From assembly GCF_004366715.1 (NCBI RefSeq), contig NZ_SOQZ01000006.1, forward strand, positions 1 to 64,000: 64,000 bases of DNA. The letters run 5' to 3'. Every line of letters begins with the position of its first letter. The stretch's first letter is position 1. The position numbers and the translations under genes were made by a program. Under the pieces are notes generated by a model. The model was not told where the DNA came from. It saw only the letters and a program-made list of their open reading frames with translations, and ran no database searches. This document shows, in pieces, positions 25,538 to 33,669 of the stretch. Source of the DNA: Meridianimaribacter flavus (GTDB lineage Bacteria > Bacteroidota > Bacteroidia > Flavobacteriales > Flavobacteriaceae).

Positions 25538-26242
25538 TTAGAGCAGTTGAAGTTCTTCATTGGTTTTAAGCTTAAACCTTCTTTTAAACAAGTATACTCC
25601 AAGGTATAAAAATGGAGTGTCAAATAAAGCGACGAGTACTTTAAACAAAAAGCCAGCAACCAATAAGCCTTTGAAGTTTTCCCAAGGAATAATATCAAAC
25701 GAACAAAGAAGCATTAATACTGTAAAAGTATCGACAAATTGAGAAAACCAAGTAGAAAAATTGTTTCTTAACCATAAGTGTCTGCCTTTAGTAAGGCGTT
25801 TCCAGAAATGATAAATTTGAATATCGATAAACTGAGCAAATAGATATGCCATCATACTAGCGCAGACAGCAATGGCAGAATTCCCGAATACTTTTGAGAA
25901 TAATGCATCGTCAACATAAGACCAAGAAGTAGCAGGAACAGAGTTGGCAGCAAAAATTATTAATAACGAAAATACCGAAGCAAAAATACCAGTAACTACA
26001 ACTTGGTTAGCTCTCTTTTTTCCATAGATTTCACTGATAAGGTCGGTAATTAAAAACGTAACAGGATAGGGTAAAATACCAACCGAAATTTCAAAAAGCT
26101 TTGTTCCAAAAACCGAAACATCTACAGGATACCAATAAAAAAACTTCTGAAAAATTAAATTAGAAACCACCAAGGAGGTTATAAACAAAGCAGCTAGGAG
26201 CAGGTAAATTCGTTGTGAAGCAAGTTTGTCTTTTAACGTCAT
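25538..26242 (-). CDS. Queuosine precursor transporter (VUT/YhhQ family)
   Basis: The 234-residue integral membrane protein has about six helices. It carries the family segment GILPYPVTFLITDLISEIYGKK in its first half (positions about 51-72) and an amphipathic middle with QFIDIQIYHFW. YhhQ-type proteins import queuosine precursors such as preQ0/preQ1 for tRNA modification. No queuosine genes are adjacent. Its 5' end lies 25 bp from the first palindromic repeat at 26268, so it borders the GIY-YIG repeat cassette. Confidence 0.88.
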   Translation of the reverse strand: MTLKDKLASQRIYLLLAALFITSLVVSNLIFQKFFYWYPVDVSVFGTKLFEISVGILPYPVTFLITDLISEIYGKKRANQVVVTGIFASVFSLLIIFAANSVPATSWSYVDDALFSKVFGNSAIAVCASMMAYLFAQFIDIQIYHFWKRLTKGRHLWLRNNFSTWFSQFVDTFTVLMLLCSFDIIPWENFKGLLVAGFLFKVLVALFDTPFLYLGVYLFKRRFKLKTNEELQLL

Positions 26243-26267
26243 TTTAAATTGGGATATTATGGTTTTT

Positions 26268-26312
26268 GTCAGTTCGAGTGTCTAGTCAGTAATGACTGGA
26301 TGTATCGAGAAC
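26268..26312 (+). repeat. Palindromic REP-like element, copy A
   Basis: A GTCA foot (26268-26271) is followed by outer arm GTTC (26272-26275), core GAGTG and inner arm TCTAGTCA (26281-26288). The loop GTAA comes next, then inner arm TGACTGGA (26293-26300), core TGTATCGA (26301-26308) and outer arm GAAC (26309-26312). The inner stem has one G-T pair. Three other copies share foot and cores but have different, compensating stems. Its last base is the first base of the GIY-YIG stop codon. Confidence 0.88.
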
Positions 26313-26608
26313 TAAGACTTATTAAACTTCTTTTTTGATAAATTAGGTAGCTTGTCATATTCATTATTAATTAAAGCCTCCTTTTTTGCTTTTGACCACT
26401 TTTTTATTTGTTTCTCTGTACTTATTGCTATATCAACATTTGTGAATTCAGCAAAATAAACTAAATCAATAGGTCTTCGCTTATAAGTATAGCTGTCTAA
26501 ATGTTTTCCATTTTTATGCTCATTAATTCTCTTTTCTAAATTAGAAGTTATACCTGTGTAATAGGTTTTGTCAGAACACATCAATATATAAACATAATAA
26601 ACCTTCAT
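26312..26608 (-). CDS. GIY-YIG nuclease family protein
   Basis: The 98-residue protein is a single GIY-YIG domain. It has VYI (residues 6-8) and YTG as the two signature strands, Arg in LEKRINEH, and the metal-binding Glu in STEKQIKKW, ending in a Lys-rich tail. Stand-alone GIY-YIG proteins of this size (YhbQ/UPF0213-like) occur in multiple copies in many flavobacterial genomes; their role is unsettled. Here the gene sits precisely between two inverted copies of a palindromic repeat. The hairpin of copy B lies 18 bp upstream of the ATG, and the TAG stop abuts copy A. Confidence 0.9.
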   Translation of the reverse strand: MKVYYVYILMCSDKTYYTGITSNLEKRINEHKNGKHLDSYTYKRRPIDLVYFAEFTNVDIAISTEKQIKKWSKAKKEALINNEYDKLPNLSKKKFNKS

Positions 26609-26626
26609 TTTAATCCTGTTAAATTA

Positions 26627-26671
26627 CTTCTCGATACATACCAAAGATTCCTTTGGTATACTCGAAGTGAC
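26627..26671 (-). repeat. Palindromic REP-like element, copy B
   Basis: Read on the minus strand it has foot GTCA, outer arm CTTC, core GAGTA, and inner arms TACCAAAG/CTTTGGTA (a perfect 8 bp) with a 4-nt loop. The core TGTATCGA and outer arm GAAG follow. Relative to copy A, both stems are changed on both sides so pairing is kept. It lies in the leader of the GIY-YIG gene. Confidence 0.88.
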
Positions 26672-26773
26672 ATCTCTTTCTAATGAACAAATGTTAATCA
26701 TTTTAAATTGTGAATAAATAGGTTTAGTAAATATAAACTATTAAAATTTCTTTTACTTATTTTGAAGCCTGTT

Positions 26774-27907
26774 ATGAGCAATACCAACAAAGTTTACATC
26801 GCATTAGGGAGCAATAAAGGAGATAGATTAAAACATCTGCAAGATGCTGTAGATCTTATTTTTAAGCAATTAGGAAAGGTAAATATTATTTCAAAAGTGT
26901 ACAATACACCTGCTTTAGGCTTTGAAAGCGACGACTTTTTAAACACATGTTTGCTTATTGAAACGCCTCTTGAAGCTCAAGATGTGTTACAGCAATTGTT
27001 GCAAATTGAAACACAATTAGGACGTCAGCGTACTGAAAATTCTGGATACGAAGCACGAACTATCGATTTGGATGTCTTGTTTTTTAATGACGAAATAATT
27101 GAAAGCAAAGACCTTGTTGTACCTCATAAAGAGCTGCATAAACGTAAGTTTGTGTTGCAGCCATTATTTGATATTGCGCCAAAATATCAACATCCTGTTT
27201 ATCAAAAAAGTATTACCGAATTACTGCAAGACTGTGACGATAAAAGTGCTATTGAGGCCATAAATATTTGGTTGAAAAATCCAATAAAGCAATACAAGTT
27301 GTCAGGTTACAACTATATTGCTGTTGAAGGAAATATTGGAGCAGGAAAAACCAGTTTGTCTACTCAAATTGCCCAAGATTTCAATGCTAAACTTATTTTA
27401 GAGCGTTTTGCTGATAATCCGTTTTTACCAAAGTTTTACGAAGATGCGCAACGCTATGCCTTTACTTTGGAAATGTCTTTTTTAGCAGATCGATACCAAC
27501 AAATAAGTGATGATCTTTCTCAGCTAGATCTCTTTAAAGATTTTATAGTTAGTGATTATGATATTTATAAATCGTTGATTTTTTCAAAAATCACATTACC
27601 TGAAGACGAATTTAAACTCTACCGAAAGTTGTTCTACTTAATGTATAAGGACATTGCAAAACCTGAATTGTATGTCTATTTGTATCAAAACACTCAACGC
27701 TTACAAGAAAACATAAAAAAGAGAGGTAGAGATTATGAGCAGAATATAGATAACGACTATCTCGAAAAAATTAATGCTGGATATTTAGAGTTTTTAAAAA
27801 ACCAAACTGAGCTCAACGTAAAGATTATTGATATTTCAGATAAGGATTTTGTGAGCAGTAGAGAGGATTATTTATGGGTTTTAGAGCAGATTTCTAATGG
27901 ATTGTAA
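26774..27907 (+). CDS. folK: Fused folK (HPPK) - deoxynucleoside kinase
   Basis: The 377-residue protein joins two enzymes. Residues 1-160 are HPPK (YIALGSNKGDRLKHL; later RTIDLDVLFFND), which pyrophosphorylates the pterin in folate synthesis. Residues about 175-377 are a deoxynucleoside kinase with P-loop VEGNIGAGKTSLS and the DRYQQISDDL region, which phosphorylates salvaged deoxynucleosides. Such fusions are known in Flavobacteriia. I start at ATG 26774, because an upstream in-frame TTG at 26762 adds nothing conserved. It overlaps the next gene by 11 bp. Folate and dTMP metabolism reappear at 47978 (DHFR) and 50081 (thyA). Confidence 0.93.
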   Translation: MSNTNKVYIALGSNKGDRLKHLQDAVDLIFKQLGKVNIISKVYNTPALGFESDDFLNTCLLIETPLEAQDVLQQLLQIETQLGRQRTENSGYEARTIDLDVLFFNDEIIESKDLVVPHKELHKRKFVLQPLFDIAPKYQHPVYQKSITELLQDCDDKSAIEAINIWLKNPIKQYKLSGYNYIAVEGNIGAGKTSLSTQIAQDFNAKLILERFADNPFLPKFYEDAQRYAFTLEMSFLADRYQQISDDLSQLDLFKDFIVSDYDIYKSLIFSKITLPEDEFKLYRKLFYLMYKDIAKPELYVYLYQNTQRLQENIKKRGRDYEQNIDNDYLEKINAGYLEFLKNQTELNVKIIDISDKDFVSSREDYLWVLEQISNGL

Positions 27908-29248: not shown

Positions 29249-29785
29249 TTAATTTAGTTTTTTTAGCTTTGAAAACACATCCCAAACCACAACACCACAA
29301 CTCACCGAAATGTTTAAAGAGTGTTTGGTGCCATATTGAGGAATTTCAATAACAACATCACTTTTGCTAACCACATTTTGAGCAACACCTTTTACTTCGT
29401 TGCCAAAAACCAAAACGTAAGTAGTGTTAGCTTCAGGTTGAAAGGTGTTAAGCATAGTGGCATGTTCAGCTTGTTCAATAGCACAAACTTTTACCCCTTC
29501 AGATTGCAATTTTTCTATAAGTGAAAGCGTATCTTTAACATACTCCCATTGTACAGTATCTGTACTCCCTAAAGCGGTTTTATGGATGTCTTTATGTGGT
29601 GGAGTTGCTGTAATACCGCAGAGATATATTTTTTCAATTAAAAACGCGTCACTAGTTCTAAATACTGAGCCAATATTGTTTAAGCTTCGTATGTTGTCTA
29701 ACACAATAATGATAGGTGTTTTTTTACTGTCTTTAAATTCGTCTACACTTAGTCTGTCTAGTTCGCTATTTTTTAGTTTTCGCAT
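29249..29785 (-). CDS. TrmH/SpoU family RNA 2'-O-methyltransferase
   Basis: The 178-residue SPOUT methyltransferase has all three family motifs: NIGSVFRTSDAF (motif 1), VFGNEVKGV (motif 2), and IPQYGTKHSLNISVSCGVV (motif 3, the knotted SAM site). It transfers a methyl group to the 2'-OH of a ribose in tRNA or rRNA; which RNA is not clear from sequence. I start at the ATG 29783-29785, one codon inside a possible TTG start. It lacks the extra N-terminal RNA-binding domain of longer SpoU proteins. Confidence 0.92.
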   Translation of the reverse strand: MRKLKNSELDRLSVDEFKDSKKTPIIIVLDNIRSLNNIGSVFRTSDAFLIEKIYLCGITATPPHKDIHKTALGSTDTVQWEYVKDTLSLIEKLQSEGVKVCAIEQAEHATMLNTFQPEANTTYVLVFGNEVKGVAQNVVSKSDVVIEIPQYGTKHSLNISVSCGVVVWDVFSKLKKLN

Positions 29786-29941
29786 CAAAAATTTATGTTT
29801 TGTTTCCGCGTAAGCAAAAAACCTTCTATTTAGTTACACTTAACCTTGTTAAAATCTCGCTATAATTGTAAATAACTTATAGTTACAAGGTTTTAAAAAC
29901 CCTTAAAATATAAGTACATTAGCAATCCTTTAATTTTAGGT

Positions 29942-29986
29942 GTTTTCGATACAATTTTCAATGTTTTGAAAATCACTCAAACTGAC
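29942..29986 (-). repeat. Palindromic REP-like element, copy C
   Basis: On the minus strand it has foot GTCA, outer arm GTTT, core GAGTG, and inner arms ATTTTCAA/TTGAAAAT (a perfect 8 bp) with a 4-nt loop. The core TGTATCGA and outer arm AAAC follow. The TTC-to-TTT change in the outer arm is matched by GAA-to-AAA on the other side, a clear compensatory pair. It forms an inverted pair with copy D across 15 bp. Confidence 0.87.
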
Positions 29987-30001
29987 ATAAATTAAAAGAA
30001 C

Positions 30002-30045
30002 GTCAATTCGAGTGTTTTGAATGTAATTCAAAATGTATCGAGAAT
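30002..30045 (+). repeat. Palindromic REP-like element, copy D
   Basis: It has foot GTCA (30002-30005), outer arm ATTC, core GAGTG, and inner arms TTTTGAAT/ATTCAAAA (a perfect 8 bp) with a 3-nt loop. The core TGTATCGA (30034-30041) and outer arm GAAT follow. It ends 38 bp before the mutS start codon, so the hairpin would lie in the mutS promoter or leader. Confidence 0.88.
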
Positions 30046-30083: not shown

Positions 30084-32696
30084 TTGGCAAAAAAAGCTAA
30101 AAAAGAAACGCCTTTGATGAAACAATACAACGCTATAAAGGCAAAATATCCTGATGCGTTGCTGTTGTTTAGAGTTGGTGATTTTTATGAAACTTTTGGA
30201 GAAGATGCTGTTAAGGCTGCAAAAATTCTGGACATTATCTTAACCAAACGAGGTGCAGGTAGTGAAAGCGAAATAGAATTAGCTGGTTTTCCGCATCACT
30301 CCATGAATACTTATTTGCCAAAACTGGTTAAGGCTGGAGAGCGTGTTGCTATTTGCGACCAGCTGGAAGATCCAAAACAAACCAAAACTATTGTAAAACG
30401 TGGTGTTACTGAACTTGTAACTCCTGGAGTAGCTCTAAACGATGATATTTTACACTCCAAGACCAATAACTTTTTGGCTGCTGTATGTTTTGGTCGAAAT
30501 AGTATTGGTGTATCGTTTTTAGATGTGTCAACAGGTGAGTTTTTAATTTCTCAAGGCAATACAGAGTATGTAGATAAACTACTTCAAAATTTTAAACCTA
30601 GCGAAGTGTTGGTCGCTAAGCCAAAACGTCAAGAGTTTAAAACAGTTTTTGGTGACAATTTTCATACGTTTTATTTAGAAGATTGGGTCTTTCAAGACGA
30701 TTATGCCAATGAAACACTGTTAAAGCATTTTGAAACCAAATCATTAAAAGGTTTTGGGGTACAAGATTTGTTTGAAGGTATTGTTGCTTCTGGAGCTGTG
30801 CTTCATTATTTAGGAGAAACTCAGCATCATAAATTACAGCATATTACATCCATTCAACGCATAACGCAAAACGAACATGTGTGGATGGATCGATTTACCA
30901 TAAAAAATCTAGAACTTTATCAGTCAACCAATGCTCAGACAGTAACTTTGGTAGATGTTATAGATAAAACTATTTCTCCAATGGGAGGACGTTTGTTAAA
31001 GCGTTGGTTAGCGTTGCCATTGGTGAATATTGATAAAATAAGGCAACGACATGAAGTAGTAAACTACTTTTTAAAAGAACCTGCTATACTTGCCAAAATA
31101 CAGTCGTATGTAAAACAAATAGGCGATGTAGAGCGATTGATATCTAAAGTGGCAACCACTAAAATTTCACCTAGAGAAGTGGTGCAGCTTAAAAATGCTC
31201 TTGAAGCCATTGTGCCTATAAAAGCAGTAACAATGCAAGCTGAAAATAAGGCATTGCAACATATAGGAAATCAATTGGAGGCCTGTGAAGAGTTGAGGCA
31301 ACGTATAAAGTCAACGCTTAATGAAGATGCTCCTGTAAATATTTTAAAAGGAAATACGATTTCTTCAGATTTTTCTTCAGAATTAAAAGAACTTAGAGAT
31401 TTATCTACGTCTGGGAAAGAATACCTAGATAACATGCTTGAGCGCGAAAGTGAACGCACAGGAATTACCTCTTTAAAAATAGCATCAAACAATGTATTTG
31501 GTTATTATATTGAGGTTAGAAATACGCATAAAGACAAAGTTCCTCAAGACTGGATACGTAAACAAACTTTAGTAAGTGCAGAACGCTACATTACAGAAGA
31601 GCTTAAAGAGTATGAAGCCAAAATATTAGGTGCTGAAGAACGTATTTTAGCAATAGAGCAACAATTGTTTGCCGAATTAGTAAGTTGGATAGGATTGTTT
31701 ATTCAACCGGTTCAAAAAAACGCAGCTTTAATCGCTCAGTTAGATTGTTTGTCTGGTTTTGCACAGTTAGCATCAGAAAACAATTACGTTCAGCCTCAAA
31801 TAGATGATACTTTTGCTTTAGACATAAAAAATGGAAGGCATCCTGTTATTGAAAAACAATTGCCTCATGGAGAACCTTACATTGCTAATGATGTGTTTTT
31901 GGATAGAGAAGATCAACAAATCATTATGATTACAGGGCCAAACATGTCAGGTAAATCAGCCATATTAAGGCAAACAGCTTTAATTGTTTTACTTGCTCAA
32001 ATAGGAAGTTTTGTACCTGCTGAATCAGCAAACATAGGATTGGTTGATAAAATATTTACACGAGTAGGAGCAAGTGATAATATCTCTATGGGAGAATCTA
32101 CTTTTATGGTAGAAATGAACGAGACGGCTTCTATCTTAAATAATATTTCTGAACGTAGTTTGGTATTATTAGATGAAATAGGTAGAGGAACTAGTACTTA
32201 CGATGGTATTTCAATTGCATGGGCAATAAGTGAGTATTTGCATGAACATCCTAGTAAAGCAAAAACATTATTTGCAACCCACTATCACGAGCTTAATGAA
32301 ATGACCGAAACTTTTGAACGCATTAAGAATTTTAATGTTTCGGTAAAAGAGTTGAAAGATAATGTATTGTTTTTAAGAAAACTAGTTGAAGGAGGTAGTG
32401 AACATAGTTTTGGAATACACGTTGCAAAAATGGCAGGAATGCCTCAGCAAGTCATTCATAGAGCAAATAAAATATTAAAGCAACTAGAAAAATCGCATTC
32501 TAGTGAAGAGTTAACTGATAAGGTGAAATCGTTGGATAACGAAATGCAGTTAAGCTTTTTTAATTTAGATGACCCTCTTTTAGAGCAGATTAAAGAAGAA
32601 ATTGTCAATACTGATATTGATACCTTAACACCTGTTGAGGCGCTTATGAAACTAAATGAGATAAAACGTATGTTGCTGAAAAAGAAGCGCGCATAA
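30084..32696 (+). CDS. mutS: DNA mismatch repair protein MutS
   Basis: The 870-residue protein recognises mismatches. The mismatch-wedge motif FYETFGEDA is near residue 37, the Walker A is [13 protein letters not shown] and the Walker [17 protein letters not shown]; clamp and connector domains lie between. The start appears to be TTG ([12 protein letters not shown]), because the conserved N-terminus begins there. The first in-frame ATG is residue 12, only about 25 residues before the wedge motif. A TTG start usually lowers translation. The inverted palindrome pair C/D lies just upstream. A promoter for the tRNA pair follows the gene. Confidence 0.96.
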
Positions 32697-32870: not shown

Positions 32871-32893
32871 CTAAACCTTGAAAAAAATACCAT

Positions 32894-32977
32894 GCTGAAG
32901 TGGTGGAATTGGTAGACACGTTGGACTTAAAATCCAATGACCATTAGGTCGTGCGGGTTCAAGTCCCGCCTTCAGTA
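32894..32977 (+). tRNA. tRNA-Leu (TAA)
   Basis: This is an 84-nt type II tRNA with a long variable arm. The acceptor GCTGAAG pairs with CTTCAGT (first pair G-T), and the discriminator is A. The anticodon stem TTGGA/TCCAA holds loop CTTAAAA, with anticodon TAA at 32928-32930. The T-arm is GCGGGTTCAAGTCCCGC. No CCA is encoded. It lies 23 bp after tRNA-Gly and shares its promoter. Confidence 0.95.
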
Positions 32978-32978
32978 C

Positions 32979-33010
32979 AAAAAAAGCCTTACAGAAATGT
33001 AAGGCTTTTT
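32979..33010 (+). terminator. Terminator after tRNA-Leu (left copy of a 31-nt repeat)
   Basis: Eight-bp arms GCCTTACA/TGTAAGGC (32986-32993 and 32998-33005) close a GAAA tetraloop between an A7 and a T5 run. Bases 32979-33009 are identical to 40372-40402, at the far end of the accessory block. Confidence 0.9.
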
Positions 33011-33036
33011 GTATTTTAAAAAAAACAGTTCTTCTT

Positions 33037-33669
33037 TTAAACTGTAATATGATCCTGATCTTTAAATCTTTCATAAAGACTAGGATAATTTGATTTAAAT
33101 GTGTCCTTTATAAATTCTAATGGCACATCTTCAAAATGACCATAATCTTCAATGTAGGTCATAAATTTATGGTCGTCTTTATTGTATTCTTGCAACACTG
33201 CATCTTCGGTACCATTAAAATCTAAAACATCTACATTATAAATAGTACATAGTTCTTTATTAAACGCAGGCGAACATTTAACCCATTTACCATTATAAAA
33301 TACATCTACCAAACCATGAGGTGCCAGCTCGTTAGTGCCAATCACTTTTTCTAAGCGCTCTGTAGCAATGTGGTTAGATACTTTAGCTAAATGTAACCTT
33401 GCAGGAACATTAAAGGCGCGTAAACAAGCAATGTATAAAATGGCTTTATCAATACAATGTCCATCTGGTTTTTTTGCAATATTACTAGCTTTAAAATGTT
33501 CTTTAGTTAAACCAATATTAAAAGGTAAATAACGCCAACCATCTCTAACCTTTAGATACAATTGTTCTATAATATATTGTTGAGAAGTTAAATGTTTGAC
33601 GTCTTTTATAATATCTTTTATGATAGGACTGTCGTAATCGTAGTAATATGTTTTTTCGGTGTAATTCAT
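33037..33669 (-). CDS. Transglutaminase-like domain protein
   Basis: The 210-residue protein has a transglutaminase-like cysteine-protease fold. The probable nucleophile Cys lies in PDGHCIDKAILYIA, and a His in APHGLVDVFYNGKW. The usual third residue (Asp in a DPT-type motif) is replaced by CSPAFN, so the triad is altered and activity is uncertain. There is no signal peptide. Proteins of this subfamily are probably cytosolic peptidases or inactive binders. It is the outermost gene of the accessory block, converging on the tRNA terminator, and the peroxiredoxin-like gene is 9 bp upstream. Confidence 0.8.
   Translation of the reverse strand: MNYTEKTYYYDYDSPIIKDIIKDVKHLTSQQYIIEQLYLKVRDGWRYLPFNIGLTKEHFKASNIAKKPDGHCIDKAILYIACLRAFNVPARLHLAKVSNHIATERLEKVIGTNELAPHGLVDVFYNGKWVKCSPAFNKELCTIYNVDVLDFNGTEDAVLQEYNKDDHKFMTYIEDYGHFEDVPLEFIKDTFKSNYPSLYERFKDQDHITV

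Follow-up and report, generated by a model that had tools for sequence, protein, structure and literature searches.

Does a short nuclease gene lying between two facing hairpin repeats form a single system with them, and if so, of what kind? The question is raised by a unit in the 64,000-nucleotide stretch of the Meridianimaribacter flavus genome that we analyzed (hereinafter the window), in which a gene coding for a 98-residue GIY-YIG nuclease is tightly enclosed by two palindromic elements. The original prediction had read it as a possible minimal mobile unit, analogous to the REP repeats and their RAYT transposases, in which the nuclease may act on its own palindromic ends.

A GIY-YIG gene between two inverted hairpins

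The gene (26312..26608, minus strand) is framed by two 46-nt hairpins of a repeat type that we call type A. The left one, repeat A (26267..26312, plus strand; TGTCAGTTCGAGT...TGTATCGAGAAC), consists of a TGTCA tag, a GTTC arm, GAGT...TGTATCGA, a 9-bp inner hairpin and a GAAC arm; the right one, repeat B (26627..26672, minus strand; TGTCACTTCGAGT...TGTATCGAGAAG), has the same tag, GAGT...TGTATCGA and a 9-bp inner hairpin, with CTTC and GAAG as its arms. The first arm base (hereinafter S, and its partner in the closing arm S′) is thus G in repeat A and C in repeat B. Both tags face outward with the gene inside; its stop codon overlaps repeat A by one base (26312) and its ATG lies 18 nt from repeat B. 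The facing hairpins, the stop codon touching the one and the 18-bp distance from the other had all been predicted, and each of these elements is in its place; the GTCA expected at both outer ends is likewise present, the tag being in reality one base longer (YGTCA).

A second type A pair lies in the window between the ORFs at 29249-29788 and 30084-32696: a minus-strand member (29942..29987), whose arms are altered to GTTT/AAAC and still pair, is followed after 13 nt by a plus-strand member (30001..30045), whose S-S′ bases are A-T and pair as well. Farther on, a 67-aa ORF (32871-33074, minus strand) overlaps a tRNA-Leu on the opposite strand (32894-32978) and is probably no gene.

The nuclease matches the Pfam families GIY-YIG (PF01541, e-value 8e-18) and T5orf172 (5e-4), and has no NCBIfam match at 0.001. 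An AF2 model from 20 alignment rows (pLDDT 83, pTM 0.73) retrieved in Foldseek the UPF0213 proteins 1zg2 and 1ywl as the nearest solved folds, then Slx1 and the N-domain of UvrC, with only 1zg2 below an E of 0.001. The two UPF0213 proteins are its nearest solved relatives by sequence too; they are described as hypothetical, with no repeat partner named, whereas the window protein has one by association. Invariant in the 20-row alignment are Y7, Y17, R27, H31, E65 and N89, which we take to be the catalytic-type residues. The 3.2-Mb M. flavus genome (99.99% complete) has four GIY-YIG matches, namely the window gene, another small one (L026, 42% identical) and two within frames of 605 and 457 aa.

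The repeat flanks the gene in close relatives

To follow the gene beyond the window, we fetched 79 related genes by protein sequence alone (the best 80 of 287, 79 of them distinct). A type A repeat lies within 250 bp upstream of 78/79 and downstream of 78/79, on both sides of 77/79 and on at least one side of all 79; in the same 884 kb, a loose form of the pattern has 538 copies and its backwards version 8. Since the genes were retrieved by their protein alone and 77 of them are flanked on both sides, the association of gene and repeat cannot be put down to chance. The arrangement seen in the window, with tags outward and the gene inside, recurs in 48 loci (49 if the gene start is set differently), the reverse order in 18 and a direct orientation in 11, and two lack one side. 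In these 48 canonical loci, the upstream copy is oriented like the gene and stops 16 nt (median) short of the ATG, while the downstream copy points the other way and begins 2 nt (median) past the stop codon. The S bases of the two flanking copies are opposite in 44/48.

Two further observations concern the coding side of such loci. Seven GIY-YIG proteins (L197, L201, L206, L239, L254, L256 and L271) have LDSAR/FDSAQ-like C-termini, as if the reading frame continued into the downstream repeat. At L063, L064, L089, L098, L137, L177 and L234, the gene stands in tandem with its repeats, as two or three copies whose scores are the same or almost the same.

Anatomy and folding of the repeat

The type A consensus, drawn from the 79 related loci with their 418 copies (402 distinct), is [T/C]GTCA-S-TTCGAGTG, a variable stem/loop and TGTATCGAGAA-S′; the copy search required TTCGAG and TATCGAGAA and left the tag free. 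Over the 402 distinct copies, the base frequencies in the tag are T 0.67/C 0.32, G 0.98, T 1.00, C 0.98 and A 0.95, with conservation setting in sharply at the Y of YGTCA and stopping at S′. S and S′ pair as G-C in 209/402 copies and as C-G in 172/402. The GAG and CGA next to the arms STTC and GAAS′ would, going by their sequence, place two G-A mismatches between pairs. Type A has no conserved 3′ tail, and its stem is composite with internal loops. Past the tag there is no conserved outer flank: the top 7-mers stem from neighboring repeats in the 79 loci and are AT-rich words in the M. flavus genome.

The inner stem varies freely in sequence and pairs all the same. Among 303 distinct variable inner stems, 2122/2418 cells pair, against a mean of 1368 and a maximum of 1407 when the partners were dealt among copies (200 rounds), which indicates that the hairpin is kept through compensatory change. 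Folded as single-stranded DNA, repeat B of the window has a z of -4.7 with 0/200 shuffles equally good, and repeat A a z of -1.9 with 8/200. Of neighboring repeats no more than 120 bp apart in the 79 loci, inverted ones have opposite S bases in 141/150 cases and direct ones the same S in 53/53; because inverted neighbors differ in S and direct neighbors agree, a repeat pair is made up of two distinguishable halves.

Genome-wide copies and co-occurrence with the gene

The strict form of the pattern, TTCGAGTN{10,40}TGTATCGAGAA, has 25 exact copies in the M. flavus genome, the window's two included, and its backwards version none. We assigned to subfamily A those genes that scored at least 140 bits, a threshold chosen once the scores had been seen; 16 of 120 genomes of the family have one, the copy in genome G121 containing an internal stop codon. 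Strict repeats occur in all 16 and in 33 of the 104 others (Fisher 1.1e-7), with median copy numbers of 7.5 and 0, and a loose repeat adjoins the gene in 16/16 loci. This co-occurrence in part restates the flanking, as the copies beside the gene were counted too, and only one strict copy is present in two of the 16 genomes.

The repeats also occur without the gene, as seen from the same 33/104 gene-free genomes with at least one strict copy; in 12 of them the number is at least five and reaches 22. The gene may have been lost from such genomes. Five genomes (G061, G084, G054, G107 and G112), with between 7 and 22 strict type A repeats, gave no subfamily profile match at an E of 1e-20; in these, the gene may have been lost or another enzyme may be present.

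Related subfamilies carry different repeats built alike

Lower-scoring GIY-YIG genes are mostly without a type A repeat, and many carry other repeats of a common plan, that is, a YGTCA tag, an arm, GAG...CGA and a hairpin. Type B (YGTCA-NNNYGAG-CGCAG-TCGARNNN) is found near proteins ending like LSECRNATHYKYK, type C has the form YGTCA-NNNTGAG-CYTG-TCGAAGNN, and the repeats near more distant GIY-YIG genes read TGTCATTCTGAG...GAAGAATC or CGTCATTGCGAG...GCAATC. For the one type B element that was folded, with a truncated tag, no significant structure resulted (z -0.7), and our literature search found no printed copy of the type B core.

These types were captured with a generic element composed of the tag, a four-base arm, GAG, 2-62 nt, CGA, an optional base and the reverse complement of the arm, so that the sharing of GAG and CGA is no independent evidence, both being built into the search pattern. 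Such an element lies within 300 bp of 163/218 genes and in 0/218 shuffled flanks, the count covering 218 of 226 gene-bearing loci after seven loci judged to duplicate others and L270 (41 bits, outside the bins) were dropped. By score band, it accompanies 91/95 genes at 140 or more, 44/60 at 100-140, 3/19 at 75-100 and 25/44 at 55-75. Near the 95 subfamily A genes there are 282 generic elements in 62 kb, versus 35 in the 535 kb more than 2 kb away from the genes of L060-L138.

Repeat type follows the phylogeny of the protein. On a tree of 117 of the 163 rows (45 of the 91 type A rows taken at random and all others; few columns), repeat type needs 24 changes against a shuffled mean of 64.7, and 0/200 shuffles were as low. 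A starred clade has 44/46 type A rows, and another (support 91, not starred) 26/27 type B rows; one type A label (L241) falls outside the A clade. Other labels cluster weakly: type C with six changes (7/500 shuffles as low) and T:TCC with six (55/500). Because relatedness alone could cluster labels on a tree, matching within a genome is the stronger test. Among the genomes fetched, seven combine an A gene with a B gene, and in every one of them the repeats near the A gene are exclusively of type A and those near the B gene exclusively of type B (7/7). In three more genomes, an A gene with A repeats is accompanied by a second gene that has neither A nor B repeats. Mixed loci exist as well, four subfamily A genes being also near a B (L094) or a C core (L064, L072 and L105).

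Insertion, empty sites and turnover

The left neighbor of the unit is presumably a yhhQ-like gene (25538..26242, minus strand), and the right neighbor presumably a fusion of folK and a deoxynucleoside kinase (26777..27907, plus strand; matches in 39/40 genomes). Of 29 other loci retrieved with the fusion gene, 11 have the two neighbors side by side. Between them in these 11 relatives there is neither a GIY-YIG gene nor a repeat. Relative to the empty sites L146 and L147, the window has 459 additional bp, and a 12-bp direct repeat, CATTTTAAATTG, stands on either side (26240..26251 and 26699..26710, both plus strand); 15 and 26 nt of other DNA separate its copies from the tags. Judged by these comparisons, the unit is a lineage-specific insertion.

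Sister sites were aligned further for five of nine joined sites (those with informative-looking matches) and for the L316 sites. At a site in genome G124, a gene-free repeat pair of 109 bp is absent from two genomes of the same genus and has a like pair in a third; besides the pair, the insert contains additional DNA (about 28 and 26 to 31 nt) and a direct repeat of 5 bp. Three of the five further sites (L318, L322 and L321) have an empty sister site, and by eye the sister has repeats of another type at the same place for L317, L320 and L322. On these alignments, then, repeat sites are turned over between sister species. The L321 site, in G124, is the same yhhQ/folK intergenic stretch as positions 26243-26776 of the window; in that genome, which belongs to another genus, it contains a type A pair, and in a sister (L379) it is empty, so that the stretch is possibly a shared hot spot. 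At L325 a type A pair appears by eye to lie inside a glycosyltransferase-like coding region, and the flanks of that site in G330 are about 100 bp apart, suggesting that it too is filled.

The unit is not everywhere recent. Among 65 of the 79 loci, compared by manual grouping of rows and with blastn, which may miss old synteny, 35 share both flanks with others (11 sets, one spanning Maribacter, Muricauda, Kordia and Cellulophaga) and 30 share one flank or none. Some units thus occupy old sites and others new ones, and several are, by the shared flanks, old and vertically inherited. The aligned inserts extend about 5 to 50 nt past the GTCA tags with ends that vary, and this inconstancy disfavors simple tag-to-tag transposition; a precise transposon ending at the tags is ruled out by junctions that are not flush with them. 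Equal-scoring gene copies within one genome are tandem and not dispersed among the lists examined, and a distant relative (G256) has two at opposite ends of a contig. No clean insertion of a single repeat could be established among the 79 loci, where the matches listed show mostly differences in array copy number. The notion of a minimal mobile unit thus stands by half: relatives lack the insertion and sister species gain and lose repeat pairs, but the ends beyond the tags are inconstant, the gene copies are tandem and several units are old.

A predicted nuclease with a cognate repeat, and its alternatives

The gene and the repeats are probably the two halves of a cognate nuclease/target system, RAYT/REP-like with a hydrolytic GIY-YIG enzyme, in which nicking would drive the spread of the repeats. 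From the observed association, co-diversification, structure and presence or absence of the unit and of pairs, we infer that the protein binds the repeat and cleaves it as a single strand, and that this cleavage drives spread. Under the proposed mechanism, the small GIY-YIG protein would recognize its own hairpin, most likely as single-stranded DNA, through the unpaired YGTCA tag and the internal GAG...CGA motif that most of the observed types share, while the arms and the core would determine specificity, and would nick at or near the tag. The gene sits within two inverted copies with different S bases (C and G), a REPIN-like pair of the kind that also stands alone elsewhere in the genome. 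Repeated nicking with repair or recombination may then spread, multiply and remove repeat pairs, the gene now and then being carried along. It is a prediction of this mechanism that each GIY-YIG subfamily should bind and cut its own repeat and not its neighbor's; nature would thereby offer a set of matched enzyme-target pairs, several within one genome, for asking how a 98-residue nuclease could read a hairpin.

All that we observed would also fit a role in the control of competence or recombination, whereby the nuclease would cut incoming single-stranded DNA at the repeats in natural transformation, with the repeats kept as marks and not spread by the enzyme. Ssn of Neisseria meningitidis is a site-specific nuclease of the GIY-YIG superfamily, defined as cutting single-stranded DNA only, that acts on the NTS repeat and controls competence and recombination in natural transformation. 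A 2025 description of the Ssn family is said to comprise GIY-YIG nucleases cutting single-stranded DNA at a repeated sequence in Neisseria, together with homologs of other specificities. A small GIY-YIG enzyme with genome-wide cognate repeats is what we find here too, and passages of a 2013 survey equate the CGTC-1 repeats of Neisseria with dRS3 repeats (PMC3733652). However, competence control alone leaves unexplained both the framing of the gene at a distance of few nucleotides in many loci and the gain and loss of repeats between sister species, and we regard it as unlikely.

The placement of the copies in the 48 canonical loci, close before the ATG and just past the stop codon, would suit hairpins that act in the mRNA to control the gene, perhaps with the nuclease autoregulating on its own message. 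Yet 23 of the 25 strict copies in the M. flavus genome lie outside the window unit, arrays of many copies in both orientations are seen, and positions 26000-27000 have no Rfam match to E 1; we consider regulation quite improbable. The same Rfam search rules out a known RNA family as the identity of the hairpins.

Homing endonucleases occur among GIY-YIG enzymes, which suggests the repeat as a double-stranded homing target. A homing gene interrupts its target, whereas the present gene has an intact repeat to its left and to its right, with more of them elsewhere, and the generic element is found beside GIY-YIG genes at 0/47 loci on viral contigs, making homing highly improbable. Phage carriage of subfamily A was also rejected: the 47 relatives on viral contigs reach at best 51% identity, and 23 phage records are all under 60%.

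The alternative offered with the original prediction, a RAYT (Y1 tyrosine transposase) elsewhere that mobilizes the repeats and a gene caught by chance, draws on the resemblance of the repeats to REPs, on their REPIN- or BIME-like pairing and on the presence of Y1 genes in 13 of 40 genomes searched. The M. flavus genome itself, at its 99.99% completeness, has no Y1 match at an E of 0.001. In relatives, neither type A nor the generic element occurs within 500 bp of the Y1 domain at any of 26 loci examined (0/26; 26 of 30 fetched, from 43 matches, with L039, L040 and L057 left out for broken frames and L059 for a contig end, and L047, with one stop, kept). With repeats on both sides of 77/79 GIY-YIG loci against 0/26 at Y1 loci, chance capture is ruled out, and RAYT-driven repeats are scarcely credible.

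Comparison with known systems

Considering these results, the predicted nuclease/target system looks like the Ssn kind as that family is described. Common to both are a small stand-alone GIY-YIG protein, a multi-copy cognate palindromic repeat (cognate by association only in our case) and homologs of different specificity. The type A repeat differs in that its hairpin is longer and composite and its inner stem varies with pairing preserved by covariation, and the gene differs in being framed by two inverted repeats of differing S base, with insertion of the unit and empty sites seen.

RAYT genes are, in passages of the paper describing them (PMC2817692), always flanked by two inverted REPs that co-evolve with them. 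Like the REPtrons, REPINs and BIMEs of that system, ours has an enzyme gene between two inverted tagged palindromes, inverted pairs and arrays, and enzyme-repeat co-evolution, as witnessed by the tree and the 7/7 matching within genomes; again, enzyme presence goes with repeat abundance (16/16 versus 33/104 genomes, own flanking copies counted). Unlike it, the enzyme is a GIY-YIG protein, with matches to GIY-YIG and T5orf172 only and none to the HUH transposases with a catalytic tyrosine (PF01797), and the tag is YGTCA and not GTAG. Of the original prediction, the REP/RAYT analogy with a GIY-YIG enzyme is therefore the part that is strongly supported, by the constant flanking, the co-diversification and the lack of an own Y1 transposase, and the mobile unit the part that was only half right. 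That the nuclease would act on its own palindromic ends agrees with all of these results.

Closest in tag are the CGTC-tagged REPs, which passages of the 2013 survey describe as apparently without a dedicated transposase and unassociated with transposase genes (PMC3733652). Their unpaired CGTC (TGTC, CCTC) motif at one end, the foot of the hairpin, recurs in type A (402 distinct copies); set against the descriptions in those passages, type A has the GAG/CGA internal motif and a long variable hairpin and lacks the stem of 8-9 bp with a loop of 4-5 nt and a CCA tail. A term search of the survey's text gave no occurrence of 'GIY', and a literature search over titles and abstract openings gave no link of GIY-YIG genes to REP-like repeats. 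On plasmids, for which we examined 12 of 30 records with a distant GIY-YIG match (one, Spirosoma, from Bacteroidota), the GIY-YIG genes of two records, one Rhizobium and one Shinella, each stand between perfect CGTC-tagged hairpins, with none in far parts (2/12), and by the same strict test the other ten have none. By eye and unscored, hairpins with other tags flank the gene in two Methylobacterium records, one Sinorhizobium and one Sphingomonas record.

YGTCA hairpins in Bacteroidota and CGTC hairpins at two alphaproteobacterial plasmid genes are thus tied to small GIY-YIG genes, to be set beside the apparently transposase-less CGTC repeats in those passages of the survey (PMC3733652). Tentatively, and with more doubt than confidence, we suggest that small GIY-YIG nucleases might be the missing mobilizers of tagged REPs for which no transposase is known (CGTC/TGTC). 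They would then constitute a second, chemically different kind of REP dispersal, in which hairpin pairs would be moved or seeded by a hydrolytic nuclease in place of a covalent tyrosine enzyme, and a readable code would link enzyme subfamily to hairpin type.
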